DNA of 64,000 nt from Streptomyces sp. NBC_00459 (lineage in GTDB: Bacteria > Actinomycetota > Actinomycetes > Streptomycetales > Streptomycetaceae), in the NCBI RefSeq assembly GCF_036013955.1, contig NZ_CP107903.1:7812001-7876000 (forward strand). Reading direction: 5' to 3'. Position 1 is the stretch's first letter. Each line of letters opens with the position of its first letter. The notes below the pieces were generated by a model that worked only from the letters and a program-made list of their open reading frames with translations, did not search any database and was not told the origin of the DNA. This document shows positions 48,111-61,631 of this stretch, piece by piece. Made by a program: the position numbers and the translations under genes.

Positions 48111-49895
<1,785 letters not shown>

Positions 49896-49931
49896 CGCCG
49901 AGGGCGCGGGGAGAGCCGAGGACATGGAAGA

Positions 49932-49963
49932 AGGGGGTGCCCATGGGCACCCCCTCTTTGTTT
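49932..49963 (+). terminator. Rho-independent terminator of gcl
   Basis: AGGGGGTGCCCA/TGGGCACCCCCT (49932-49955), a perfect 12-bp stem palindrome, is followed by CTTTGTTT. It is the most classical terminator in the window, 37 bases after the stop. Confidence 0.88.
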
Positions 49964-50076
49964 CCCCCGTTGTTCCCCCGTGCGTTTTCCCGTTGTTCCC
50001 CCGTGCTGACAACAATGTGCCCGACCCTGGGGGGAGTTGAAGCCCCCGGGGCCGGGTTCAGAGCTGGATTTGAGGT

Positions 50077-50138
50077 TTCCGGGCGGCGCCGACGCCTGGG
50101 CGCGACAGGACAATTGTCGGCGCGGGCGCCGCCCGGAA
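50077..50138 (-). terminator. Terminator of the hyi-glxR operon
   Basis: TTCCGGGCGGCGCC (50077-50090) pairs over 14 bp with GGCGCCGCCCGGAA (50125-50138). The 34-base loop contains another palindrome, GACAATTGTC. It lies 27 bases beyond the glxR stop. Confidence 0.75.
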
Positions 50139-50164
50139 GATCGAAGAAGGAACAGAAAGGCGCG

Positions 50165-51055
50165 TCAGACCTCGGCGCCCGACAGACGTTCCACGGCCCT
50201 CAGCAGCGCGGAGTGGTCCAGGCCTCCGTCGCCCTGCGCCCGCAGGGACGCGATGAGTTGGGCGACCACCGCACCGACCGGCAGCGCGGCGCCGACCGCG
50301 CGGGCCGCGTCCGTCACGATGCCCATGTCCTTGTGGTGGAGGTCGATACGGAAGCCCGGTGCGAAGTCGCGGTTCAGGAAGTTGTCCTTCTTGCGCGTCA
50401 GCACGGTCGAGCCGGCCAGTCCGCCGCCCAGCACCTCCAACGCCGCCCTCAGGTCCACGCCCGACCTCTCCAGGAAGACCACCGCCTCGGCGCACGCCTG
50501 GATGTTCACCGCGACGATCAGCTGGTTCGCTGCCTTCACCGTCTGGCCGGAGCCGTGCGGGCCGCAGAGCACGACGGTCCTGCCGAGCGCCTCGAAGATC
50601 GGCACTGCCGAGTCGAAGTCGGCCTGTTCACCGCCGACCATGATGGACAGCACTGCCTCGACCGCGCCCGCCTCACCGCCCGAGACGGGCGCGTCCAGCA
50701 CCCGGACGCCCTTCTGGGCCGCCGCCTTCGCCAGATCCACCGACGTCTGCGGGGTGATCGACGACATGTCGACCAACAGGGTGCCGGGCCGCACGTTCGC
50801 CAGGATGCCCTCAGGGCCGTACGCGACCGCCTCGACCTGCGGTGACGCGGGCACCATCGTGATCACGACGTCGGCCTCGCGCACGGCCTCGGCGATCGAA
50901 CCGGCCGCGGTGCCGCCGGCGGCGACGAGGCGGTCGAGCTTGTCCTGTTCCAGGGTGAAACCGATGACGTCGTAACCCGCCTTGATCAGGTTCTCGGACA
51001 TGGGGGAGCCCATGATGCCGAGGCCTATCCAGGCGACCTTGGGACGATTGCTCAT
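50165..51055 (-). CDS. glxR: 2-hydroxy-3-oxopropionate (tartronate semialdehyde) reductase
   Basis: A 296-residue beta-hydroxyacid dehydrogenase. N-terminal NAD(P) site VAWIGLGIMGSPMSENLIKAG; substrate motif LDAPVSGGEAGA; catalytic Lys in SGQTVKAANQLIVAVN; KDNFLNRDFAPGF and HHKDMGIV complete the signature. It reduces tartronate semialdehyde from Gcl to glycerate. Starts 30 bases after hyi. Confidence 0.93.
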   Translation of the reverse strand: MSNRPKVAWIGLGIMGSPMSENLIKAGYDVIGFTLEQDKLDRLVAAGGTAAGSIAEAVREADVVITMVPASPQVEAVAYGPEGILANVRPGTLLVDMSSITPQTSVDLAKAAAQKGVRVLDAPVSGGEAGAVEAVLSIMVGGEQADFDSAVPIFEALGRTVVLCGPHGSGQTVKAANQLIVAVNIQACAEAVVFLERSGVDLRAALEVLGGGLAGSTVLTRKKDNFLNRDFAPGFRIDLHHKDMGIVTDAARAVGAALPVGAVVAQLIASLRAQGDGGLDHSALLRAVERLSGAEV

Positions 51056-51085
51056 GACGGGGCGCCTCTCTGCTGCTCTGCGATG

Positions 51086-51925
51086 TCAGGGGGTTCGGCG
51101 TGCTTCGCGCGGCAGCCAGTCGAACGCCTCGGCGCTCGGCCGGTCGCCCGGCTTGTACTCCAGGCCCACCCAGCCCTCGTAACCGGCCTTGCGCAGCCGG
51201 TCCAGGTGGTCCGCGAGGGGGAGTGTGCCGGTGCCGGGGGCGCCGCGGCCGGGGTTGTCGGCGATCTGGACGTGGCCGGTCTTCGCGGCGAACCGGTCGA
51301 TCACCGCGGGGAGATCCTCGCCGTTCATGGACAGGTGGTAGAGGTCCATCAGGAAGCGGGCGTTGTCGAGGCCGGTCGCCTCGTTGACCTTGTCGACGAC
51401 CTCCACGGCGGCCGGCGCGCTCACCAGCGGATACCGGGGCGACTCCGGCTTGTTGAGCGCCTCGACGAGGAGAATCGCGCCGATACGGTTCGCGGCGCGC
51501 GCCGCGAGGACCAGGTTCTCCAGTGCCAACGTGTCCTGCTCCGCCGGGTCCACGCCCTCGATCCGGTTGCCGTACAGCGCGTTGAGCGCGCCGCAGCCGA
51601 GCGACTCGGCCAGCCCGGCGGCCACCTCGATGTTGGCGCGGAACCGCTCCGACTCCTCGCCGGGCACCGACACGGCGCCCCGGTCCGGGCCCGGCAGCTG
51701 TCCGGCGTAGAAGTTCAGGCCGGTGAGCCGGACGCCCGCGTCCTCGATCGCGGCCCGCAGGGAGTCGAGCTCGGACCGGGCAGGGGTGGGGGAGTCGAGC
51801 CAGGGCCACCACAGCTCGACCGCGGTGAAACCGGCGGCCCGGGCCGCCGCCGGGCGCGCCAGGAGCGGGAGTTCCGTGAAGAGGATCGACAGGTTGACGT
51901 TGAAGCGCTGCTCTGGGAATCCCAT
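51086..51925 (-). CDS. hyi: Hydroxypyruvate isomerase
   Basis: A 279-residue TIM barrel with N-terminal RFNVNLSILFTELPLL, GFTAVELWWPW, LVEALNK, FLMDLYHLSMNGEDLP and HVQIADNPGRGAPGTG, which identify Hyi. It interconverts hydroxypyruvate and tartronate semialdehyde. First gene of the hyi-glxR unit, with paired operators just upstream. Confidence 0.93.
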   Translation of the reverse strand: MGFPEQRFNVNLSILFTELPLLARPAAARAAGFTAVELWWPWLDSPTPARSELDSLRAAIEDAGVRLTGLNFYAGQLPGPDRGAVSVPGEESERFRANIEVAAGLAESLGCGALNALYGNRIEGVDPAEQDTLALENLVLAARAANRIGAILLVEALNKPESPRYPLVSAPAAVEVVDKVNEATGLDNARFLMDLYHLSMNGEDLPAVIDRFAAKTGHVQIADNPGRGAPGTGTLPLADHLDRLRKAGYEGWVGLEYKPGDRPSAEAFDWLPREARRTP

Positions 51926-51944
51926 GGCCGTCGGCGCCTCTCCT

Positions 51945-51982
51945 ATTTCGTATCGTGGAAGTAACTTTCTACCTGATGGAAG
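51945..51982. promoter_or_regulatory. Paired operators of hyi-glxR
   Basis: Read on the minus strand, CTTCCATCAGGTAGAAA (51982-51966) and CTTCCACGATACGAAAT (51961-51945) match the gcl sites (12 of 17 positions for the second) and are likewise offset by 21 bases. They begin 20 bases upstream of the hyi start. An IclR-family regulator such as AllR is a reasonable candidate from what is known of Streptomyces allantoin metabolism. Confidence 0.72.
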
Positions 51983-52123
51983 ACTGCCGTCGAGCCTCGG
52001 AGCTTGTCAAGAGGTCTCCCCCGAGTGGCGGGGCGGTGAGGGGGCGGTTACACAGGGTTCAACGTTCATATGAGCGGGGCGCACGTCTCCCGTGTGTCAG
52101 TGCACTGAAGTTGTGAGGCAAAC

Positions 52124-53092
52124 ATGGCCGTCGAGCCATTCCCTGCCTGCCCGGAGAACTCCGGAACAGGCGAAACCCGTACCGTCACCCGCATACGCAC
52201 GAACGACCTGGTGCGCACCGTGGTCGTCGCCAGACCCCTGGACGATGTCGTCCAGCTCGTCACCCTCCTGGAGCAGTCACCCGACGGTCTGCCGACCGCG
52301 GCCACGGTCCTGCGGGTCGCGGCCGTGGCGCGCTCCGTGGAGGACGTCTCACGCCTCGTGGAGCTGCTCGGTCCGCCGACGCACGGTGTCGACCGGATGG
52401 ACGAGGCGATCCGCACAGCCGTCGAGCAGCGCCCGGTGGCCGAGGTCGGCCGTCTGGTCGCGCTTCTGCACGCGGCCCCGCACTCCGCGCACGCGGAGGC
52501 CCAGGCGGTGCGGGCCGCCGCCACCAGCAGGCCGGTCGAGGACCTCGTGCAGTTGATCGGCAGCATCGACGACGTCCGGGACCGGGACCGGGATCCGGAT
52601 CCCGCGATCGCCCGCCCCGCACCGCAGGCGGGGGAGACGGCGGCTGTCGTGGGCGCCAGACGTGACGTCCTGTGGCTCCGCAGGGCCGTCGCCGTCCTCG
52701 TCATGCTCTGCGGCGCCGCCCACTTCCCGCTCGACTGGGTCGACGCGCCGAGGCACGGACTGGCCGCCTCGCTCGGCGTCTCCGCACTGTGCCTGCTGGC
52801 CGGCGCGGCGCTGTGGTTCGGCCGGTCGCCGGCCGTGACCGCCGCTGCCGTGGTCGCGCCGGGCGCGCTGGCCGCCGTCCATCTGCTCGGCGGTCACGTC
52901 GGCTCGGCGACACTCGCCTACGTACGCCAGGCGGGCGGAGCCGTTTCCCCGCTGCCCGCTCTGGCGGCCTGCGCCGCGACGCTCGCCGCGCTGACGGCAC
53001 TTGCCGTGGCCCTGGCCCGCCGACGGCGTGTCGCCGGTGCGCGTGACACCGTCCCCGACCCTGTCCTGAAGGTGAACTCCCTTCGCCTGTAG
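52124..53092 (+). CDS. Unknown membrane protein with four 33-residue repeats
   Basis: A 322-residue protein not recognised. Residues 36-148 contain four helical repeats with an exact 33-residue period: ARPLDDVVQLVTLLE (36), ARSVEDVSRLVELL (69), QRPVAEVGRLVALLH (102), SRPVEDLVQLIGSI (135). Residues about 188-300 form four membrane spans (AVAVLVMLCGAAHFPLDW, LGVSALCLLAGAALWFG and two more). GAGG precedes ATG 52124. The repeats resemble a small helical-repeat solenoid facing the cytoplasm; function unknown. Confidence 0.75.
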   Translation: MAVEPFPACPENSGTGETRTVTRIRTNDLVRTVVVARPLDDVVQLVTLLEQSPDGLPTAATVLRVAAVARSVEDVSRLVELLGPPTHGVDRMDEAIRTAVEQRPVAEVGRLVALLHAAPHSAHAEAQAVRAAATSRPVEDLVQLIGSIDDVRDRDRDPDPAIARPAPQAGETAAVVGARRDVLWLRRAVAVLVMLCGAAHFPLDWVDAPRHGLAASLGVSALCLLAGAALWFGRSPAVTAAAVVAPGALAAVHLLGGHVGSATLAYVRQAGGAVSPLPALAACAATLAALTALAVALARRRRVAGARDTVPDPVLKVNSLRL

Positions 53093-53178
53093 GCCGGTTC
53101 GGGTATGAGGCGCATGCTCTTCGGAGTGGGCGCACAGCCCTGCTGATTGTCGCAGGGGAGTCCGTTAGGGTCGTGTCC

Positions 53179-53208
53179 GAGCGGCTGGGACACGAGCGGC
53201 TGGGACAC
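53179..53208 (+). repeat. Two tandem copies of a 15-bp repeat in the leader of the next gene
   Basis: GAGCGGCTGGGACAC occurs twice in a row (53179-53193, 53194-53208). The 9-mer GTCGTGTCC just before it is complementary to GGACACGAC at the end of the second copy, so the leader RNA could fold into a hairpin ending about 10 bases before the ATG. Confidence 0.8.
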
Positions 53209-53222
53209 GACCTGACGGAAGA

Positions 53223-53486
53223 ATGGGCACAGTGCGACTGCGAGTGGAGTTCACGACCGAGCCCTTCGATCTCGACGAGGCACCCGCGCACGCGCTGGTC
53301 GCCCGCGAGGTCATCGAGGCCGCCGAACTGGACGCGGTGGACGTCGGCCCGTTCGGCAACACCGCCGAGGGGCACGCCGACGCCGTGCTCACCGCCCTGG
53401 ACGCGCTGCTGCGCAGGACCCTGGAGGCCGGCGCCACCCGAATCTCCCTCCAGGTCAACGTGATCGACGAGGAGGGCGACCGGTGA
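53223..53486 (+). CDS. Thiamine-binding-like small protein (MTH1187/YqgV family)
   Basis: An 87-residue ferredoxin-like fold protein. VGPFGNTAEGHADAVLTALDALL followed by EAGATRISLQVNVI matches the (G)PMGT-EG...LEAGA-RV pattern of the MTH1187/YkoF thiamine-binding group. Starts at ATG 53223 with a weak GGAAGA site; overlaps the next gene by GTGA. Confidence 0.65.
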   Translation: MGTVRLRVEFTTEPFDLDEAPAHALVAREVIEAAELDAVDVGPFGNTAEGHADAVLTALDALLRRTLEAGATRISLQVNVIDEEGDR

Positions 53487-53908
53487 CCGGCGGCGGGGAC
53501 GGATCCGGCGCCGCTGCCTTCGTCGCGGCCGTGAAACCGCTGGTCGACGCCATGGGGGGCGAGCTGGTCGCCCCCGGCCGGGCCGGCCCCGACGATGTCG
53601 TGCTCGCCTGGGAGGGCGCCGACGTGGTCGCCGTACGCCTGCCACAGCTCGCCGACTCGCTCGATCACATCCTGGCCGCCCTGGAGCGCCGGCACGGCAA
53701 GCCACTGGCCGAACTGGACCGCAAGGCCAAGCAGGAGACCGTACGGATACTCGAGGCGCGTGGCGCCTTCTCCGTGCGGCACGGGGTCGAGACCGTGGCG
53801 AGCGCCCTCGGCGTCAGCCGCTTCACGGTCTACAACTACCTCAACTACGCCAACGAGCAGCGGGCCAAGGCGCGCGAGAGCGAGGACCAGCCGCGGCAGG
53901 ACGGCTGA
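53483..53908 (+). CDS. HTH_22 (YheO/DauR-like) DNA-binding protein
   Basis: A 141-residue protein. Residues about 75-125 carry the C-terminal HTH_22 domain: LDRKAKQETVRILEARGAFSV then VETVASALGVSRFTVYNYLN. The N-terminal half keeps only a small remnant of the PAS-like YheO domain. It is coupled to the thiamine-binding-like gene. Possible regulator of the purine-catabolic genes further right, but this is inference only. Confidence 0.78.
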   Translation: MTGGGDGSGAAAFVAAVKPLVDAMGGELVAPGRAGPDDVVLAWEGADVVAVRLPQLADSLDHILAALERRHGKPLAELDRKAKQETVRILEARGAFSVRHGVETVASALGVSRFTVYNYLNYANEQRAKARESEDQPRQDG

Positions 53909-53981
53909 CCCGGCGGGTGGGGAGGGGCAGCGAGTTGGTGATTCCGCCGCAGTATGCGCCGCCAAAGGGCATGCTGGCCGA

Positions 53982-54683
53982 ATGACGGAGCCACAGGCAG
54001 TCCTGGGAGGTCCGGAACCGAACCCGAATCCGGAACAGGCGATCGTCGTAGCCGGCGTCGACGACCACCCGCTCATCCTGGGTGGTCTGCGGTTGTACTT
54101 CGCCGAGAACGCCCCGGACATCCGGCTGGGTGCCATTGAACCCAGTGTCACAGCACTGCTGGAACGAACCGACGGCCCCGCCTCCGTGGTGCTGCTCGAC
54201 CTGCTCCTGCCGACCGAACCGGACGTCGCGCACAACGTGGCGAGAATCGTGGCGACCGGTGCTCGTGTTGTCATCCTCACCTCGGACTCCCGCCCGGGAG
54301 TCGTGCGCAGCGCCATCGACGCGGGCGCCCTCGGGCTGGTCCTGAAAGGCGATCCGGAGGAATCCGTCGTCGACGCGGTACGGGCGGCGCACGCGAACGA
54401 GTTCTCGGTGTCCAGCAGACTCGCTCACGCCATGGTCACCGACCCGCGGGCAGGGGTGCGGCTCTCCGAGCGGGAGCGTCAGCTCCTTGTGCTGATGGCC
54501 CAGGGCAAGCCGCGCAAACTGATCGCGAAAGAGATGGGGATCGCGGTGGACACCCTGAAGTCCTTCCTCGACCGGGCGGCGAGGAAGTACAAGGAGGTCG
54601 GCCATCCGACGGCGGGCCCCGGCCAGTTGGTGGCCTTCGCCTTACGGGACGGTCATATCGACATCGAGCCCGAAGCCACGTGA
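53982..54683 (+). CDS. Response regulator with LuxR-type HTH
   Basis: A 233-residue regulator: receiver with AGVDDHPLILGGL, phospho-Asp73 in VVLLDLLLPTEPD, VVILTSDS and switch Lys in LVLKGDPEE; then an HTH (LSERERQLLVLMAQGKPRKLIAKEM, DTLKSFLDRAARKY). The recognition helix departs from the usual NarL/LuxR VxxHxxxxxxKL pattern. It overlaps the kinase by GTGA. The ATG at 53982 is preferred; the longer open frame upstream overlaps the HTH_22 gene. Confidence 0.88.
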   Translation: MTEPQAVLGGPEPNPNPEQAIVVAGVDDHPLILGGLRLYFAENAPDIRLGAIEPSVTALLERTDGPASVVLLDLLLPTEPDVAHNVARIVATGARVVILTSDSRPGVVRSAIDAGALGLVLKGDPEESVVDAVRAAHANEFSVSSRLAHAMVTDPRAGVRLSERERQLLVLMAQGKPRKLIAKEMGIAVDTLKSFLDRAARKYKEVGHPTAGPGQLVAFALRDGHIDIEPEAT

Positions 54684-56920
54684 GACCGGGGACCTACCGG
54701 TTCAGCGTCGAACGCGGGATGCAGCGTTCGTTCACCGTGTTGGCGGTCCTGCTCGCCGTGCAGTGGGCGGTCATGGTGACGACCTCACCGGAACTCGACG
54801 CCCTGCTGGCCGTCTCCGGCTGGTGGTTCGTCCTCGTACTGCTGGTCGAGGCCTTCCGCGCCTGGCGCTGCCTGCTGGCCGCTGCGGACGCGTGGCTGGT
54901 CTGCGGCGCGGTCCTGTTGGTGTACGCGGCGATGGCCTTGTCCCCTCCGGGCGACATCGTGGTGGGAGCCAGGGGCAATCCCGCTCTGATCGCGGCTGTT
55001 CTGGCGGCGGGATTCTTGACTCCGGTGCGCGCCTGGACGGTCTGCGTGGTGGTCTTCTTCGCGCAGGTGGTCGCCTGTCTGCCGCTGGGCGGTCCGTCGG
55101 GGGCGCTGGAAAGCCTGTGGCCGGGCATCTCCGGCGCGCTGGCCGCGGGCGTGCTGACCCGGGTGATGCGGTCGGCCGCCGCCAGGGCCGATCACGCGCA
55201 GGAAGCGCTGCTGGCGGCACAGGCCCAGGAGGCCCAGGCCGAGGGCCGGCGGTCCGCGCACCGCACATTCCAGAGGATGCTCCACGACGACGTGGCCACG
55301 GCCCTGCGCGCGGTGGCCGGTCGGGGCGTCACACAGGCCGAAGCGCGACGGACATGCGCGGACGCGGTGGCCGCGATGGCACGAGCGCCGATGGCACCGA
55401 TCACGAGCAGCACCAGGAATCTGGCCCAGGACATCGAGGAACTCGGCACCGTCCTGCCCATCGAAACCACGTTCCACATCGAGGGCGAAGTCCAGGTGCC
55501 GGCCCCGGTGGCCGCGGCCATGCTCGCCGCCGCACGAGAAGCGTTGCGCAACGTCGACCGCCACGCCTTCGCCAGCGCTGTCTCCGTACGGCTGAGCGAG
55601 GACGGGCACGGTGTCGTCCTGATCGTTTCGGACGACGGGGTCGGCTTCTCCCCTACGCGGTCGCACCGGTCGTCCTGGGGGTTGAGCCGGTCCGTCGTCG
55701 ACAGGATGGCGGAGGTGGGCGGTACCGCGGATGTGATCAGCACCGAGGGCGCGGGCACCTCCGTCCGACTGGGGTGGACCCGCGACGCCGCCCCACCGGT
55801 GGCGGCCGCCCGCCCGGACCGGGCCGCCCTGATCGCCTTCGCGGTGGGTGACATGCGCAGGCCTCTCGCCGCGGTCTGTGTGCCCTACCTGCTGAGCATG
55901 TATGTGATCGCGGTGGTCCACAGCGATGCCACGGCGAGCGCGGACCGGCTGACCGTCTGGTTCTCGGTGCTGGTCCTGATCACCCTGGCCCTGATCGTGC
56001 GCGCCGACCGGCCGGTGCCCGGCTGGGTGAGCCTCGGGAGCACCACGGTCGCCCTCGGTGGTCTGCTGTACGCGCTCTCCGTCATACCGGCCGACAGCCT
56101 CGACAATTTCGACTCCTGGCCCATCGGGGCGCTCACGCCCCTGTTCGTCGTTCTGCTGACGACCCGTTCGGTCCGGGAGGCCGTGGTTCCGCTCGTGCTG
56201 GAGGAGATCGCGATTCTGTCGCTGATCGCGACGGGAGGCCTGGTGGCCGACTCACCGGCGGCTGTTCTGCCTGCCCTGCTGTCTCCGGTGTTCGGTGTCG
56301 TCATGGTCTGGATCATCGTGCGTACGGTCGTCGGACTCGGTGCCGTCGTGGCGGCGGCCAACCGCGACCAGGTGGCGATCGCGGTCGCCGAAGCGGGACA
56401 CGAGGCCCGTACGGCGCTGCACCAGCGGAGGATCGAGGAGATCGGCGCACAACTGCTGCCCTTCCTGAGGGAGATCGCCGAGGGAAGCGAGCAGAGGGCC
56501 TGGCACGAACTGAGAGAACAGGCCCAACTGCTCGAGACGACGGCGCGTGACGAACTGCACCTGCCCGGCGTGATCGATGCCGAGGTCCGGGACCGCCTCG
56601 ACGTGGCCCGGCGGGCCGGCTGTGTCGTCAGGTTCCAGTCGGACAGCGACGCCGTGTATCCGCCCCTCGTGCTGCGCGATCTGCTGGCCACCGCACTCAC
56701 CGGCTCCGAGCCGCCCCTTCGGCTGACCCTGAGTCTGTATCCCGGCACGGAACAGGTGGAGGTGAGTCTGGTGACCGTCCCTGGAGATGCCGCCAGGAGC
56801 GCCCGGCTTCGCCGGTCCTTCGCGGGCTTCGCCCCGGTCGTGGACGACCTGCCGGAAGCGACCTGCGCACATCTGGTGGTGCGTCAAGCAGGCGGCACGC
56901 CCCCGATTTCGGGGACATGA
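54680..56920 (+). CDS. Histidine kinase with two membrane domains and two kinase-like cores
   Basis: A 746-residue protein. Residues 16-160 hold about five membrane spans. A coiled coil (ADHAQEALLAAQAQEAQAEG) leads to His202 in QRMLHDDVATALR, the presumed phospho-acceptor. A HATPase domain follows (REALRNVDRHA, SDDGVGF, SWGLSRSVVDRMAEVGG; about 275-375). A second membrane block (about 385-560) is followed by another coiled segment (AEAGHEARTALHQRRIEEIGAQLLPFL) and a region like an ATP-binding domain without clear N or G boxes. This duplicated layout is unusual; the second core is probably inactive or regulatory. It is coupled to the response regulator. Confidence 0.8.
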   Translation: MRPGTYRFSVERGMQRSFTVLAVLLAVQWAVMVTTSPELDALLAVSGWWFVLVLLVEAFRAWRCLLAAADAWLVCGAVLLVYAAMALSPPGDIVVGARGNPALIAAVLAAGFLTPVRAWTVCVVVFFAQVVACLPLGGPSGALESLWPGISGALAAGVLTRVMRSAAARADHAQEALLAAQAQEAQAEGRRSAHRTFQRMLHDDVATALRAVAGRGVTQAEARRTCADAVAAMARAPMAPITSSTRNLAQDIEELGTVLPIETTFHIEGEVQVPAPVAAAMLAAAREALRNVDRHAFASAVSVRLSEDGHGVVLIVSDDGVGFSPTRSHRSSWGLSRSVVDRMAEVGGTADVISTEGAGTSVRLGWTRDAAPPVAAARPDRAALIAFAVGDMRRPLAAVCVPYLLSMYVIAVVHSDATASADRLTVWFSVLVLITLALIVRADRPVPGWVSLGSTTVALGGLLYALSVIPADSLDNFDSWPIGALTPLFVVLLTTRSVREAVVPLVLEEIAILSLIATGGLVADSPAAVLPALLSPVFGVVMVWIIVRTVVGLGAVVAAANRDQVAIAVAEAGHEARTALHQRRIEEIGAQLLPFLREIAEGSEQRAWHELREQAQLLETTARDELHLPGVIDAEVRDRLDVARRAGCVVRFQSDSDAVYPPLVLRDLLATALTGSEPPLRLTLSLYPGTEQVEVSLVTVPGDAARSARLRRSFAGFAPVVDDLPEATCAHLVVRQAGGTPPISGT

Positions 56921-56975
56921 CCACGGACGTGCGCTGCGTCACGCTGGGGGAGAGCCCGAGTGTGAAAGGAACATC

Positions 56976-57407
56976 GTGGGAGCTGTTCTCATTTTTGTGC
57001 TCTTCTGCCTGTTGGTAGGCACCGGAGCCTTCTTCCAGAGCCGGCATTTCTTCCGAAGCGTGGAAAAGCAGTACGAGATGCGGGGCCAGGTGAACCCGCA
57101 GGCAGTGTTCCAGGCCGCCGCCGAGGCGGCCAAGGGAATTCGCTGGACCGTTCGCGAAACGAGGCAGGGACTGGAAACACGCCATCCTGTGGGCAGCGTG
57201 ATACGCGTGAACCTGGAAACCGAAGAAAACGGTGAGTGTGTCACCACTCTCTTTCTTCGCGATATCGCCTTCACCTCGCAGCTGGGCGGACTGATCAAGA
57301 CGCCTCGCGCCTACCGGGCCATTCAGCGGAAGCGGAAAAGGATGATCGCCGCCATCTCGTCCGTACCGGGCGCAGGCGACTGGCTCGAAGTGGACGGCCT
57401 GAACTGA
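56976..57407 (+). CDS. Unknown small single-span membrane protein
   Basis: A 143-residue protein not recognised. Span GAVLIFVLFCLLVGTGAFF at the N-terminus, then a soluble domain with GQVNPQAVFQAAAEAAKGIRW, NLETEENGECVTTLFLRDIA and a basic patch (RAIQRKRKRM). AAAGGA lies 5 bases before GTG 56976. 55 bases after the kinase gene. Probably a membrane-anchored partner in the same cassette; codon third positions are less GC-rich than average here. Confidence 0.68.
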   Translation: MGAVLIFVLFCLLVGTGAFFQSRHFFRSVEKQYEMRGQVNPQAVFQAAAEAAKGIRWTVRETRQGLETRHPVGSVIRVNLETEENGECVTTLFLRDIAFTSQLGGLIKTPRAYRAIQRKRKRMIAAISSVPGAGDWLEVDGLN

Positions 57408-57464
57408 CCGGAGAGATCTGGCCAGAGAACTGGCCGCAGAGAACCGACCGGAGAGGGAAACACC

Positions 57465-57620
57465 GTGGCGACCAAAGAGCAGTACGAAGCGGCACTCAGC
57501 AAGGCGGAAAGGGCAGGCCTCGGCTCCTTGGACAAGCAGCAGCTGGAACTTGTCCAGAAGCTGTACAGGGAAGCCGGGTCACGAGGGAACCGCGCGCGCA
57601 AAGTCATCGACGGCAAGTAG
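57465..57620 (+). CDS. Unknown 51-residue basic protein
   Basis: GTG at 57465 opens a short frame encoding MATKEQYEAALSKAERAGLG, then a helical SLDKQQLELVQKLYREAG segment and a basic tail (RGNRARKVIDGK). A GAGAGGG purine tract precedes it. It is highly charged and predicted mostly alpha-helical. It sits between two other small genes of the kinase cassette with short gaps on both sides, which supports its being real. Confidence 0.6.
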   Translation: MATKEQYEAALSKAERAGLGSLDKQQLELVQKLYREAGSRGNRARKVIDGK

Positions 57621-57645
57621 TCACCGTCCAGGAGGAGCGACAGGC

Positions 57646-58071
57646 ATGGGAATCTTCGGGCGCAGTAAGAACGCAGCACCTGGCGGCGGCAGGGGAACGG
57701 GGTACGTCGGCAGTTTCCTTTCGCCGCATTCGCCGGACGATACCGCTCGCATCGTCCACGCGGGCCTCGCCGGCCAGTTGTCGAACGAGTCGGCCGAGGT
57801 CACGGGCCCCGGTCTCCTGGAATCGATATACCTGAGCAGGTTCGATTCCAGCGGTATCACCGTGGTCGCCGGAAACTCCGTCGACACGTACTTCTCCTTC
57901 GCTGTCGACCTGACGGCGACATCGGCAGGAACGGAAGGGCGTGCCCATCTCGACCGTCCCGCACGGTCGGTCAAGCGATGGATGGGCAACACCATCAAGA
58001 TCAGTTCTGGTGTCCAGATCGCCCTGGAGGGGGCCGGCGTCCAGATCGTGAGCTGGGACATCGGGTTCTGA
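57646..58071 (+). CDS. Unknown 141-residue protein of the kinase cassette
   Basis: Not recognised. After a Gly-rich start (GIFGRSKNAAPGGGRGTGYV) comes a soluble alpha/beta-looking domain (GPGLLESIYLSRFDSSGITVV, DTYFSFAVDLTAT, VQIALEGAGVQIVSWDIGF). No signal or span. GGAGGAG precedes ATG 57646 by 8-9 bases. Last gene of the cassette, followed by a UUCG-loop terminator. Confidence 0.68.
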   Translation: MGIFGRSKNAAPGGGRGTGYVGSFLSPHSPDDTARIVHAGLAGQLSNESAEVTGPGLLESIYLSRFDSSGITVVAGNSVDTYFSFAVDLTATSAGTEGRAHLDRPARSVKRWMGNTIKISSGVQIALEGAGVQIVSWDIGF

Positions 58072-58129
58072 CCGGACGCGGGCCGGGCGGGGAGTGAACG
58101 AGGAGACCCATCGGGCGACGAGGAGACTG

Positions 58130-58160
58130 CCGCAGCCACCTTCGGGGTGGGCTGCGGTTT
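58130..58160 (+). terminator. Terminator of the kinase cassette
   Basis: CCGCAGCC-ACC (58130-58140), loop TTCGG, GGT-G-GGCTGCGG (to 58157) followed by TTT. One bulged G; a UUCG-type loop. Confidence 0.72.
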
Positions 58161-58225
58161 CCCGACGAGTCCGGCAGCCTTGGTCTCGGCGCGTCCGGTG
58201 CGGCCCTCGCCGTTACCCGAAATTT

Positions 58226-58266
58226 TCAACAAAGTGTTGACGTCTTGTCGCCGGAAGGCGTTAGCT
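58226..58266 (+). promoter_or_regulatory. Promoter and operator of the uricase operon
   Basis: TTGACG (58237-58242) and TTAGCT (58261-58266) are 18 bases apart. The perfect dyad TCAACA-AAG-TGTTGA (58226-58240) overlaps the -35, a good position for a repressor. It differs from the gcl/hyi sites, so a second regulator is implied. The start of the first gene is 65 bases beyond the -10. Confidence 0.65.
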
Positions 58267-58331
58267 GTGCGCAGCCAGCCCGGCGTGCTTTCCGCACGCA
58301 CCCAGCACGCACAAGGCCACGGAGGTCTGCC

Positions 58332-58844
58332 GTGACGTCGAGTACGACCCCTGGCGGCCTCGCCCGGTTCAACACCCTGGAGGAGTCCGCGGCCCGCGCC
58401 GCCCTCCACGACGCCTGCGCCTCGACGGCCTGGGGACAGCACCTGCTCGCGAAGCGCCCGTACGCCACCGCCGAGGACCTGTACACGGCGAGCGACATCG
58501 CGACGGCCGAGCTGACCGCCGACGACCTCGCCGAGGCGATGGCCGGGCACCCGCCGATCGGCCGTCCCAAGCCCGGTGACCCGACCTCCGCCCGCGAACA
58601 GCGCGGCATGGCCGGGGCCTCCGAGGAGCTGAGGGCGGAGATGCTCGAGCTGAACCTCGCCTACCAGGAGAGGTTCGGCCATGTCTTCCTGATCTGCGCG
58701 ACCGGCCGGACCGGCGAGCAGATGCGCGACGCGGTACGGGAACGGATCGGGAACACGCCGGAGCGGGAACGGGAGATCGTCCGCACCGAACTGGGGAAGA
58801 TCAACCGCATCCGGCTCGGCAACCTCGTACAGGAAGAGCAGTGA
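58332..58844 (+). CDS. OHCU decarboxylase (ureidoimidazoline decarboxylase)
   Basis: A 170-residue all-alpha enzyme converting OHCU to S-allantoin. The catalytic His is in AGHPPIG; SAREQRGM, LNLAYQERFGHVFLICATGR and RTELGKINRIRL follow. GGAGG lies 6 bases before GTG 58332. Overlaps HIU hydrolase by GTGA. Confidence 0.93.
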   Translation: MTSSTTPGGLARFNTLEESAARAALHDACASTAWGQHLLAKRPYATAEDLYTASDIATAELTADDLAEAMAGHPPIGRPKPGDPTSAREQRGMAGASEELRAEMLELNLAYQERFGHVFLICATGRTGEQMRDAVRERIGNTPEREREIVRTELGKINRIRLGNLVQEEQ

Positions 58845-59284
58845 CAGACATGAGCACCGACGCCACCGACCCCATTGCCTTCGTCGCCTCCGTGTCCACG
58901 CACATCCTGGACACCAGCGTCGGCCGCCCCGCCGCGGGCGTCGCCGTCCGGCTCGCCGCGCGCAGCGGGCAGGGCGCCCACTACGGGCGGGGGGAAGCCT
59001 GGCGGGAGCTCGGCGGCAGCGCGACCGACGCCGACGGGCGGTGCAAGGACCTGCCGGCGCTGCCGGAGGGCACGACCCATGTACGGCTCGATTTCGAGGT
59101 CGAGCCGTATCTGGAGAAGAAACAGGCCGATGCGCAGCAGGACGCCCCCGCGAATCGGGACAGCGGTGCGGCGGGAGCGTTCTTCCCGGAGGTGACGGTC
59201 ACGTTCGCCGTCGTACCGGGCGAGCACTACCACGTACCGCTGCTGCTCAACCCGTTCGGCTACTCCGTATACCGAGGGAGCTAG
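58841..59284 (+). CDS. 5-hydroxyisourate hydrolase (transthyretin-related)
   Basis: A 147-residue transthyretin-fold enzyme hydrolysing 5-hydroxyisourate to OHCU. N-terminal STHILDTSVGRPA with the active-site His and the C-terminal signature YRGS are present; YHVPLLLNPFGYS lies just before it. An insertion of about 25 residues (QADAQQDAPANRDSG) enlarges the middle. GTG 58841 overlaps the previous stop. Confidence 0.95.
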   Translation: MTDMSTDATDPIAFVASVSTHILDTSVGRPAAGVAVRLAARSGQGAHYGRGEAWRELGGSATDADGRCKDLPALPEGTTHVRLDFEVEPYLEKKQADAQQDAPANRDSGAAGAFFPEVTVTFAVVPGEHYHVPLLLNPFGYSVYRGS

Positions 59285-59291
59285 CAGCACC

Positions 59292-60212
59292 ATGACCGAT
59301 TCAGCCAGCCAGGGCCGCCCGGTGTTCCTCGGGCAGAACCAGTACGGCAAGGCCGAGAACCGCGTCGTGCGCGTCACCCGCGACGGCGCCACCCACCACG
59401 TCAAGGATCTCAACGTCTCGGTGTCGCTGTCCGGCGACATGGACGAGGTCCACCTCTCCGGCTCGAACGCGAACGTCCTGCCGACGGACACCACCAAGAA
59501 CACGGTGTACGCCTTCGCCAAGGAGCACGGCATCGACTCCGCCGAGCAGTTCGGCATCCATCTGGCCCGGCACTTCGTGACCAGTCAGGAGCCGATTCTG
59601 AAGGCCCGCATCCGCATCGAGGAGTACTCCTGGGAGCGGATCGAGGCGGCGGGCGAGGGCGAGCACTCCTTCGCCCGGCAGGGTCAGGAGACCCGGCTGA
59701 CCCAGATCACGTACGACGGTTCGTCGTGGGAGGTGGTCTCCGGGCTCAAGGACCTGGTCGTGATGAACACGACCGACTCCGAGTTCTGGGGCTACGTCAA
59801 GGACAAGTACACGACGCTCCCCGAGGCGTACGACCGCATCCTGGCGACCCAGGTGTCCGCGCGCTGGCGCTTCAACTGGTCCGACGGGGAACGGGAGATG
59901 CCCGACTGGGAGGAGTCCTACGCGCAGACCCGGAAGCACCTGCTGTCGGCCTTCGCGGAGACCTATTCGCTCTCCCTCCAGCAGACCCTGTTCCAGATGG
60001 GTGCGCGGATCATCGAGCAGCGCGACGAGATCGACGAGGTGCGTTTCTCCCTCCCCAACAAGCATCACTTCCTGGTGGACCTGAAACCCTTCGGGCTGAA
60101 GAACGACAATGAGGTCTACCTCGCCGCCGACCGTCCGTACGGCCTGATCGAGGGCACGATCCTGCGGGACGGCGCCGAGGCGCGCATCCCCGCCGACCTC
60201 ACCAACCTCTGA
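59292..60212 (+). CDS. Urate oxidase (uricase)
   Basis: A 306-residue T-fold uricase that oxidises urate to 5-hydroxyisourate with O2 and no cofactor. GQNQYGKAENRVV, NVLPTDTTKNTVYAFA (with the active-site Thr), and NKHHFLVDLKPFGLKNDNEVY are the family marks. Follows HIU hydrolase by 7 bases, so the three urate-to-allantoin enzymes are co-expressed. Confidence 0.96.
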   Translation: MTDSASQGRPVFLGQNQYGKAENRVVRVTRDGATHHVKDLNVSVSLSGDMDEVHLSGSNANVLPTDTTKNTVYAFAKEHGIDSAEQFGIHLARHFVTSQEPILKARIRIEEYSWERIEAAGEGEHSFARQGQETRLTQITYDGSSWEVVSGLKDLVVMNTTDSEFWGYVKDKYTTLPEAYDRILATQVSARWRFNWSDGEREMPDWEESYAQTRKHLLSAFAETYSLSLQQTLFQMGARIIEQRDEIDEVRFSLPNKHHFLVDLKPFGLKNDNEVYLAADRPYGLIEGTILRDGAEARIPADLTNL

Positions 60213-60257
60213 CGCGTACCCGGAAGTCAAGGACGAGAAGTTAAGGACGAACGAACG

Positions 60258-61631
60258 ATGGTTCAGCGCATCGTCATCGAGAACTGCGCGGTCGCGACCG
60301 TGGACGCCGCCGACACCGAGTACGCGTCCGGCCATGTGGTGATCGCCGGCAACCGTATCGAGTCGGTCGGCGCAGGAAAGGCCCCCGAGGGTCTGGCGGA
60401 CGCGGTCCGGCGCATCGACGCGAGCGGGCATCTCGTCACCCCCGGTCTGATCAACACGCACCACCACTACTACCAGTGGATCACCCGGGGCCTGGCCACC
60501 GACCACAACCTCTTCGACTGGCTGGTGGCGCTGTACCCGACGTGGGCGCGTATCGACGAGCCGATGGTCCGCGCGGCGGCGCAGGGCTCGCTGGCCATGA
60601 TGGCCCGCGGCGGAGTCACCACCGCCATGGACCACCACTACGTCTTCCCGGAGGGCTCCGGCGACCTGTCCGGCGCGATCATCGGCGCGGCCCGCGAGAT
60701 GGGCGTCCGCTTCACCCTCGCCCGCGGCTCGATGGACCGCAGCGAGAAGGACGGCGGCCTGCCCCCGGACTTCGCCGTCGAGACGCTGGAAGGTGCGCTC
60801 GCCGCCACCGAGGCCACGGTCGACGAGCACCACGACCCCTCCTTCGACGCCATGACCCAGGTCGCGGTCGCCCCCTGCTCACCGTTCTCCGTCTCGACCG
60901 AACTGCTGCGCGAGGGCGCGGAGTTGGCGCGGCGCAAGGGCGTACGCCTGCACACCCACGGCTCGGAGACGGTCGAGGAGGAGCAGTTCTGCAAGGAACT
61001 GTTCGGCATGGGCCCGACCGACTACTTCGAGTCGACAGGCTGGCTCGGCGAGGACGTGTGGATGGCGCACTGCGTCCACATGAACGACTCGGACATCGCC
61101 GCCTTCGCCCGTACGAAGACGGGTGTCGCCCACTGTCCGTCCTCCAACGCCCGGCTGGCGGCGGGCATCGCACGCGTCCCCGACATGCTGGCGGCAGGCG
61201 TCCCGGTCGGTCTCGGCGTCGACGGCACCGCGTCCAACGAGTCCGGCGAACTTCACACCGAACTGCGCAACGCCCTCCTCATCAACCGCCTCGGGGCACA
61301 CCGGGAAGCGGCCCTGAACGCCCGTCAGGCGCTGCGCCTGGGGACGTACGGCGGTGCCCAGGTGCTGGGCCGGGCAAGGGAGACCGGGTCGCTGGAGCCG
61401 GGCAAGCTCGCCGACCTGGTCCTCTGGAACCTGGACACCCTGGCCCACGCGTCCATCGCCGACCCTGTCACCGCCCTCGTCCTCGGCGCGGCGGCCCCGG
61501 TCACCGCGTCCTTCGTGAACGGTGAACAGATCGTCGAGAACGGGCGGTTGCTGCACGTCGACGAGGACGAGATCGCCCGCTCGACGCGCACGGAGGCCCG
61601 GCGGCTGGCCGAGATCGCCGCGCGAGCCTGA
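60258..61631 (+). CDS. 8-oxoguanine deaminase-type amidohydrolase
   Basis: A 457-residue metal-dependent amidohydrolase. Zinc ligands in NTHHHYYQW, LHTHGSE, MAHCVHMND and GLGVDGTASNES are intact. The overall pattern fits 8-oxoguanine/atrazine-chlorohydrolase-like deaminases. It would turn 8-oxoguanine into urate, feeding the uricase directly upstream (45-base gap). Guanine deaminase is the main alternative. Confidence 0.88.
   Translation: MVQRIVIENCAVATVDAADTEYASGHVVIAGNRIESVGAGKAPEGLADAVRRIDASGHLVTPGLINTHHHYYQWITRGLATDHNLFDWLVALYPTWARIDEPMVRAAAQGSLAMMARGGVTTAMDHHYVFPEGSGDLSGAIIGAAREMGVRFTLARGSMDRSEKDGGLPPDFAVETLEGALAATEATVDEHHDPSFDAMTQVAVAPCSPFSVSTELLREGAELARRKGVRLHTHGSETVEEEQFCKELFGMGPTDYFESTGWLGEDVWMAHCVHMNDSDIAAFARTKTGVAHCPSSNARLAAGIARVPDMLAAGVPVGLGVDGTASNESGELHTELRNALLINRLGAHREAALNARQALRLGTYGGAQVLGRARETGSLEPGKLADLVLWNLDTLAHASIADPVTALVLGAAAPVTASFVNGEQIVENGRLLHVDEDEIARSTRTEARRLAEIAARA

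Follow-up and report, generated by a model that had tools for sequence, protein, structure and literature searches.

One question raised by a short stretch of the Streptomyces sp. NBC_00459 genome is what a sensor kinase and its response regulator have to do with three small genes that follow them closely. The stretch analysed as a whole, which we call the window, comprises 64,000 nucleotides (NCBI RefSeq assembly GCF_036013955.1, contig NZ_CP107903.1, positions 7,812,001 to 7,876,000 of the forward strand), and the five genes occupy positions 53982-58071 within it. The answer we tentatively favour is that they form an acquired two-component cassette, in which the membrane kinase and the regulator control, and probably anchor, a module made of the 51-residue protein p51 and a partner. 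Likewise it seems possible, if short of probable, that p51 serves as a portable adaptor by which variable partners are linked to different platforms, a function proposed from sequence comparison. The features concerned are these.

53982..54683, +, RR, a NarL/LuxR-type response regulator of 233 residues (Pfam, aligned residues)
54680..56920, +, HK, a membrane sensor histidine kinase of 746 residues, GTG start (Pfam, alignment, hydropathy)
56976..57407, +, p143, with one N-terminal hydrophobic segment, GTG start (hydropathy, homologue in genome G091)
57465..57620, +, p51, a conserved basic small protein with a GNRARKxIDG tail, GTG start, the shared component (alignments)
57646..58071, +, p141, a soluble partner behind p51 beginning MGIFGRSK, ATG start (G091 homologue, position)
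58125..58160 (about), +, a GC-rich hairpin, likely the cassette terminator (folding; kept in G091)
53929..58200, +, approximate extent of the insert, from the HTH_22 gene to the uraD promoter region (homology breakpoints)

What singles out p51 is the company it keeps, since it alone among the three small genes was found with different platforms. Strong matches (E below 1e-10) occur in 8 of 392 genomes of the genus. At family level 3 of 200 have one, among them G742 from another genus, and a class-wide search of 296 genomes gave no strong match outside the genus. These searches share genomes and their counts are not summed; partial scoring of candidates per genome makes each count a lower bound. 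The genus and family matches together with locus L021 make up ten strong loci, six of which lie behind a dual-core kinase (the window, G091, G107, G110, G242 and L021) and four without it (G593, G559, G742 and G245). In G593 and G559 the genes in front of p51 are of AAA, radical SAM and kinase-like type. The AAA gene of G593 matches AAA_2 (1.4e-41) and the PADLOC model PDC-M37B (1.2e-29); the radical SAM gene was called by eye in G593 and in G559 matches Fer4_12 (3.9e-22), with Radical_SAM 0.2 bits below its cut-off; and the kinase-like gene of G593 reaches 15 bits with Pkinase, below the cut-off, and PD-T4-6 of PADLOC at 2.4e-6, that of G559 having no Pfam match. A CHAT gene (Pfam 4.8e-46) lies ~4.1 kb before p51 in G742; between the two stand a 223-residue gene and a CHAT-like one that looks broken (judged by eye; it has no Pfam match). 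The G245 copy of p51 has only its partner beside it, the nearest genes of interest being a RES-type gene, as we take it to be, at ~2.4 kb and a CHAT gene at ~3 kb, both on the other strand, and a caspase gene at ~7 kb (PADLOC caspase model, 6.8e-28). The stretch L160:6355-17365, from the other genus, holds the CHAT gene, the broken CHAT-like gene, p51 and its p174 partner near an integrase gene, which lies behind p51, and also a small gene presumably of excisionase type.

In all ten strong loci p51 is followed on the same strand by a small gene, whose start lies 24-293 bp behind it. Its product belongs to one of four partner families, namely p141 (two loci), p144 (four), p174 (three, common to G593, G559 and G742) and p124 (one). 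The best hint of a link between them is an RDWxxGPL match of p144 and p174 (E 0.005 over ten residues; hhalign P 0.023), and p51 itself is 60-63% identical in the p144-type relatives. A p51 profile run against PDB sequences found at best a designed binder (E 0.0076), taken as unrelated. Weak p51 matches were set aside: nine came from the class-wide search (E 0.001-0.093), three of which were printed and by eye are not p51, and others (one, plus five in the genus search, E 1.5e-4 to 0.009, one place being shared) included five that were printed and are not p51. Against plasmids, tblastn gave no match for p143, p141, the G110 homologue of p51, p174, p144, the G593 kinase or the window HK; the GTPase of G225 had matches in 23 records, all of them covering 80% of the query or less.

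The same exchange of parts is visible from the side of the kinase. A kinase match at 1e-20 was found in 9 of 246 genus genomes, of which five carry a full-length gene (the window, G091, G110, G107 and G225), one (G242) has it in two pieces and three have partial copies of the first half. The seven Streptomyces rows of the kinase tree, each with a module, form one starred set (99/98, midpoint root). At least three gene sets stand downstream within this clade: p143-p51-p141 in the window and G091; p51-p144-mem201 in G107, G110, G242 and L021; and a GTPase with a protein of 99-107 residues and a cysteine-rich protein of 141 residues, carrying a possible zinc ribbon (sub-threshold), in G225 and AP-93. 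In G225 a p144 relative (55% identity) precedes the GTPase module. The GTPase module stands behind the dual-core kinase at L019:11799-13559 and L024:9498-11220, and the L019 copy of the GTPase, when scanned, matched Pfam MMR_HSR1 and LeoA of PADLOC (2.8e-10). In the tree the window stands further from the p144 rows than the GTPase rows do, and therefore either p51 has been lost from the GTPase loci or it was acquired on two occasions. The first-pass annotation had proposed a new signalling cassette; what stands of this is an acquired unit with plausible catalytic residues in RR and HK and small genes that travel with them, whereas the idea of one fixed five-gene unit has to be given up. That the small genes might be widespread by themselves in unrelated contexts, which would have told against a cassette, is true in part for p51, given the four of ten strong loci without the kinase, and is not the case for p143 and p141, which among 246 genus genomes were found inside the cassette only.

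The integrity of the cassette in the window is straightforward. The five genes lie in the order given with tight spacing, as first described; RR and HK overlap by 4 bases, and the gaps that follow measure 55 bp (HK-p143), 57 bp (p143-p51) and 25 bp (p51-p141). The five-gene order recurs in full in the sister genome G091 at 90-96% protein identity (p143 90%), the kinase there ending three residues earlier, and in Streptomyces relatives RR and HK followed by small genes are kept. Between window and G091 the third codon positions are the most changed in all six genes compared. The synonymous and nonsynonymous codon changes number 39/9 for RR, 107/67 for HK, 28/14 for p143, 8/5 for p51 and 22/14 for p141, and 10/15 for uraD, taken as control.

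As to origin, on base composition and homology bounds the cassette reads as a horizontally acquired unit, a low-GC3 (G+C at third codon positions) insert of ~4.3 kb with an HTH_22 gene on one side and uraD on the other. The small genes had been thought less GC-rich at third positions, hinting at acquisition, and codon usage agrees: their GC3 is 0.74-0.79 and that of RR 0.82, with none of 49 other gene calls in the window lower, and for HK, at 0.86, a single one of the 49 is lower (calls of >=100 residues from an in-house caller script, whose overlapping chunks may count one gene twice). In 17 of 18 same-genus comparators HTH_22 lies upstream of uraD, 125-253 bp away in 16 and 992 bp away in one, the eighteenth locus breaking off 206 bp upstream of uraD. 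This count excludes four loci from beyond the genus as well as the second uraD copy of G008. Homology between the window and G091 cassettes starts at 53929, 53 bp before the regulator, and homology with the empty sites before uraD starts at ~58200-58211 in the best matches, the upstream region of uraD being kept beside the cassette. Because HTH_22 and uraD adjoin in most comparators and the homology is so bounded, the cassette is taken as an insert and the neighbouring purine genes as commonly without it. In G091, too, uraD is the right-hand neighbour, and HTH_22 lies ~7.2 kb further left. The 2.4 kb before the G091 regulator (L006:11900-14255) hold only one called frame, of 52 residues. The surroundings of the cassette, window positions 48111-61631, are a region of purine and glyoxylate catabolism in which OHCU decarboxylase, HIUase and urate oxidase were matched, and whose other genes we presume to encode a carboligase, a reductase and an isomerase.

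The signalling pair itself is plausible in its catalytic residues. RR matches Pfam GerE (5.2e-8, above cut-off) and falls short with Response_reg (27.6 bits against a cut-off of 30.2), for which the regulator of L019 scores 42.4, above it; D27, D28, D73, T100 and K122 are invariant in five of five aligned rows, and with its receiver residues and LuxR-type helix-turn-helix the protein belongs with the NarL/LuxR regulators of two-component systems. In PADLOC it has a weak match only (0.0087). The adjacent kinase brings the H-box, N-box and G-boxes expected of the pair: HK matches HATPase_c at residues 284-364 (4e-9), with no Pfam match to HisKA_3, and consists of a transmembrane block with a DHp/CA core (H202, N291, DDGVGF, G334) followed by a transmembrane block with a degenerate second core. 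The two cores align over 140 columns (hhalign with 22 rows, probability 79%, P 1.6e-5 for a single comparison); with 5 rows the halves gave no match. In the 22-row alignment, for which rows were sought in 18 loci (L062 giving none usable), the second core has neither N nor G boxes and no conserved histidine. The label "dual-core" given to the kinase holds, with the reservation that the second of the two is degenerate. At 48.6 bits against the 300 cut-off of NCBIfam NF047322, HK lies outside the MacS family. Its relatives in a single frame of 683-788 residues come from Nocardioides, Cellulomonas, Aeromicrobium, Propionibacteriaceae and others (among 80 stretches kept of 247 confirmed), and judged from these the family is one that spans the Actinomycetota. 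It is thereby documented as a family that has kept a second, degenerate core. A regulator lies beside the kinase in the Streptomyces loci and in Cellulomonas (L023), with another order in L034 and L026, and none was called beside it in L035, L046 and L061.

About the two flanking small proteins less can be read. In p143, residues 1-19 form the hydrophobic segment (hydropathy 2.58). Both p143 and p141 occur in 2 of 246 genus genomes at E 0.001, in each case inside the cassette (window and G091). Neither matches Pfam, NCBIfam, PADLOC or PHROGs, and p51 has a sub-threshold Pfam match only, so that the impression of small products without recognised relatives holds for the libraries used; the best hits among PDB sequences (p143 E 0.87, p141 E 0.25) are taken as unrelated. 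Alignments of 1-5 rows gave no support for common ancestry between p143 and p141, or between either of them and the other partners. Downstream of p141, the "clear terminator" of the first-pass annotation survives as a GC-rich hairpin, present in G091 with altered sequence: positions 58110-58180 fold at -36 kcal/mol (z -2.36, 4 of 200 shuffles equally good). It has no T-run, and it is not among the three sites of a terminator consensus scan, which fall within p143 and compare with 1.9 expected.

How would such a cassette operate? A membrane signal would lead to autophosphorylation of the first core at H202, the phosphate would be passed to D73 of the regulator, and the phosphorylated regulator would raise expression of its own operon. 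As a small adaptor, p51 would then bring p141 to a membrane assembly formed by p143 and/or the degenerate core, the output being an inducible response of conflict or stress type, and in the relatives the same adaptor would serve other platforms (AAA/radical SAM/kinase-like, perhaps CHAT) with other partners. The wider proposition, that p51 is a new portable adaptor class of the Streptomycetaceae, a 50-residue protein loading unrelated partners onto such platforms, with the two-component system as the sensor of a conflict-type module, we consider doubtful. In one version of it p51 would be a peptide substrate modified by the radical SAM enzyme where there is one. Two-component signalling is normally viewed as stress and nutrient sensing; if the proposition were true, a single very small protein would link such signalling with the modular conflict systems known from multicellular bacteria, and the adaptor idea could be put to a direct test at a few listed loci.

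Several results weigh against the favoured reading. The link to conflict is an association through four loci, with CHAT, RES and caspase genes 2.4-7 kb from p51, and both the proximity of CHAT, caspase and AAA genes and the small gene downstream in ten of ten loci are raw counts. PADLOC at 0.01 matched neither the window kinase nor the small proteins, and no NTPase, protease or nuclease is encoded in the cassette. In the kinase relatives L019 and L024 a GTPase module takes the place of p51; hhalign found no clear mutual relation among the four partner families, with shallow alignments that give it little power; and AlphaFold without alignment performed poorly (mean predicted confidence, pLDDT, 50.7 for p143 and 33.8 for p141), too low a confidence for these two proteins, and therefore no fold search was made. 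The window's own genome (G000) also has, at ~6.93 Mb, an operon of AAA, radical SAM and kinase-like genes (L162:6192-11604) whose kinase is 43% identical to that of G593, and no p51 stands behind it. This operon turned up in only 1 of 91 genomes of the genus in a search at 1e-30 that scored 10 candidates in each, and it is absent from the four other p51 genomes checked (G091, G107, G110 and G245), and therefore p51 is independent of it; its presence with p51 in one genome suggests a link for G000 only. On the opposite strand after this operon lies a gene which we take to resemble AbiEii nucleotidyltransferases, with no NCBIfam match.

The main rival, itself a real possibility though we would not call it probable, is an ordinary envelope or nutrient two-component system in which p143 is a membrane accessory of the kinase and the small proteins act as auxiliary modulators or belong to the regulon, with no conflict role. 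Intact catalytic residues in RR and HK fit it well, as do the lack of a defence-model match for the cassette kinase and small proteins and the six of six non-Streptomyces loci read (L023, L026, L034, L035, L046 and L061) in which no p51-type module was seen by eye; it accounts less readily for a module swapped inside one kinase clade, or for p51 occurring also in a CHAT locus and behind AAA/radical-SAM/kinase-like genes, with a small gene after it each time. That two-gene unit, a constant small basic protein and a variable partner in ten of ten loci, could also be a toxin with its antitoxin or an effector with its immunity protein, expressed under the control of the two-component system, and the sparse distribution and the integrase gene near the G742 copy are in keeping with this; yet a constant member with several unrelated partner families suits an adaptor better than a specific antitoxin, and no match to a toxin family or solved structure was obtained for p143, p141, p144, p174 or p124 where searched, so we regard such a pair as improbable. 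Very improbable indeed is a role in purine catabolism, with the cassette controlling the adjoining uraD, HIUase and urate oxidase genes. Its place between HTH_22 and uraD, with uraD the right-hand neighbour in G091 too, would agree with such control, but the same two genes lie close together without the cassette in 16 of the 18 comparators, cassette relatives sit in other contexts, and a hairpin separates the cassette from uraD, whose upstream region is kept. We accordingly keep to the acquired cassette with a p51-plus-partner module as our provisional choice.

By the features tested, the cassette is a two-component system, and its nearest counterparts are other dual-core systems. Those of the Actinomycetota with NarL/LuxR regulators share one intact and one degenerate core, and differ in that p51, p143, p141 or a similar small-gene module appears in none of the six non-Streptomyces loci. 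Closer still are G107, G110, G242 and L021, which have regulator, dual-core kinase (42% identity in G107 and G110) and p51 in one strand-order, with p144 and a membrane protein of 201-204 residues replacing p141 and p143. Conservons differ, since none of the five cassette proteins has a Pfam match, at E up to 1, to roadblock, Ras-like GTPase or DUF742 (the last presumably a conservon component). Likeness to conservons (Cvn), as far as the accessible part of PMC13343842 describes them, lies in an operon-borne sensor kinase with small accessory proteins, and two cassette relatives carry a GTPase gene. Among the titles and abstract openings listed by searches of the open-access literature, none describes this gene arrangement.

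The NTP-dependent conflict systems of Kaur et al. 2020 (PMC7159879) consist, in the sections of that paper available, of a constant core with variable effectors; these sections also report a standalone peptide gene that accompanies one for a radical SAM protein, which likely modifies a peptide, and no histidine kinase domains among the vWA-associated effectors. The window cassette differs in having no NTPase, vWA or protease core, genes of these kinds being seen only near p51 relatives elsewhere and none among the five cassette proteins. Because the defining parts are absent, the cassette is neither a conservon nor an NTPase-centred conflict system. It resembles the latter in its constant core with variable effectors and in that p51 relatives adjoin AAA and radical SAM genes, and by analogy p51 could work like the small helical adaptor domains of conflict systems described in the accessible part of PMC8195603.

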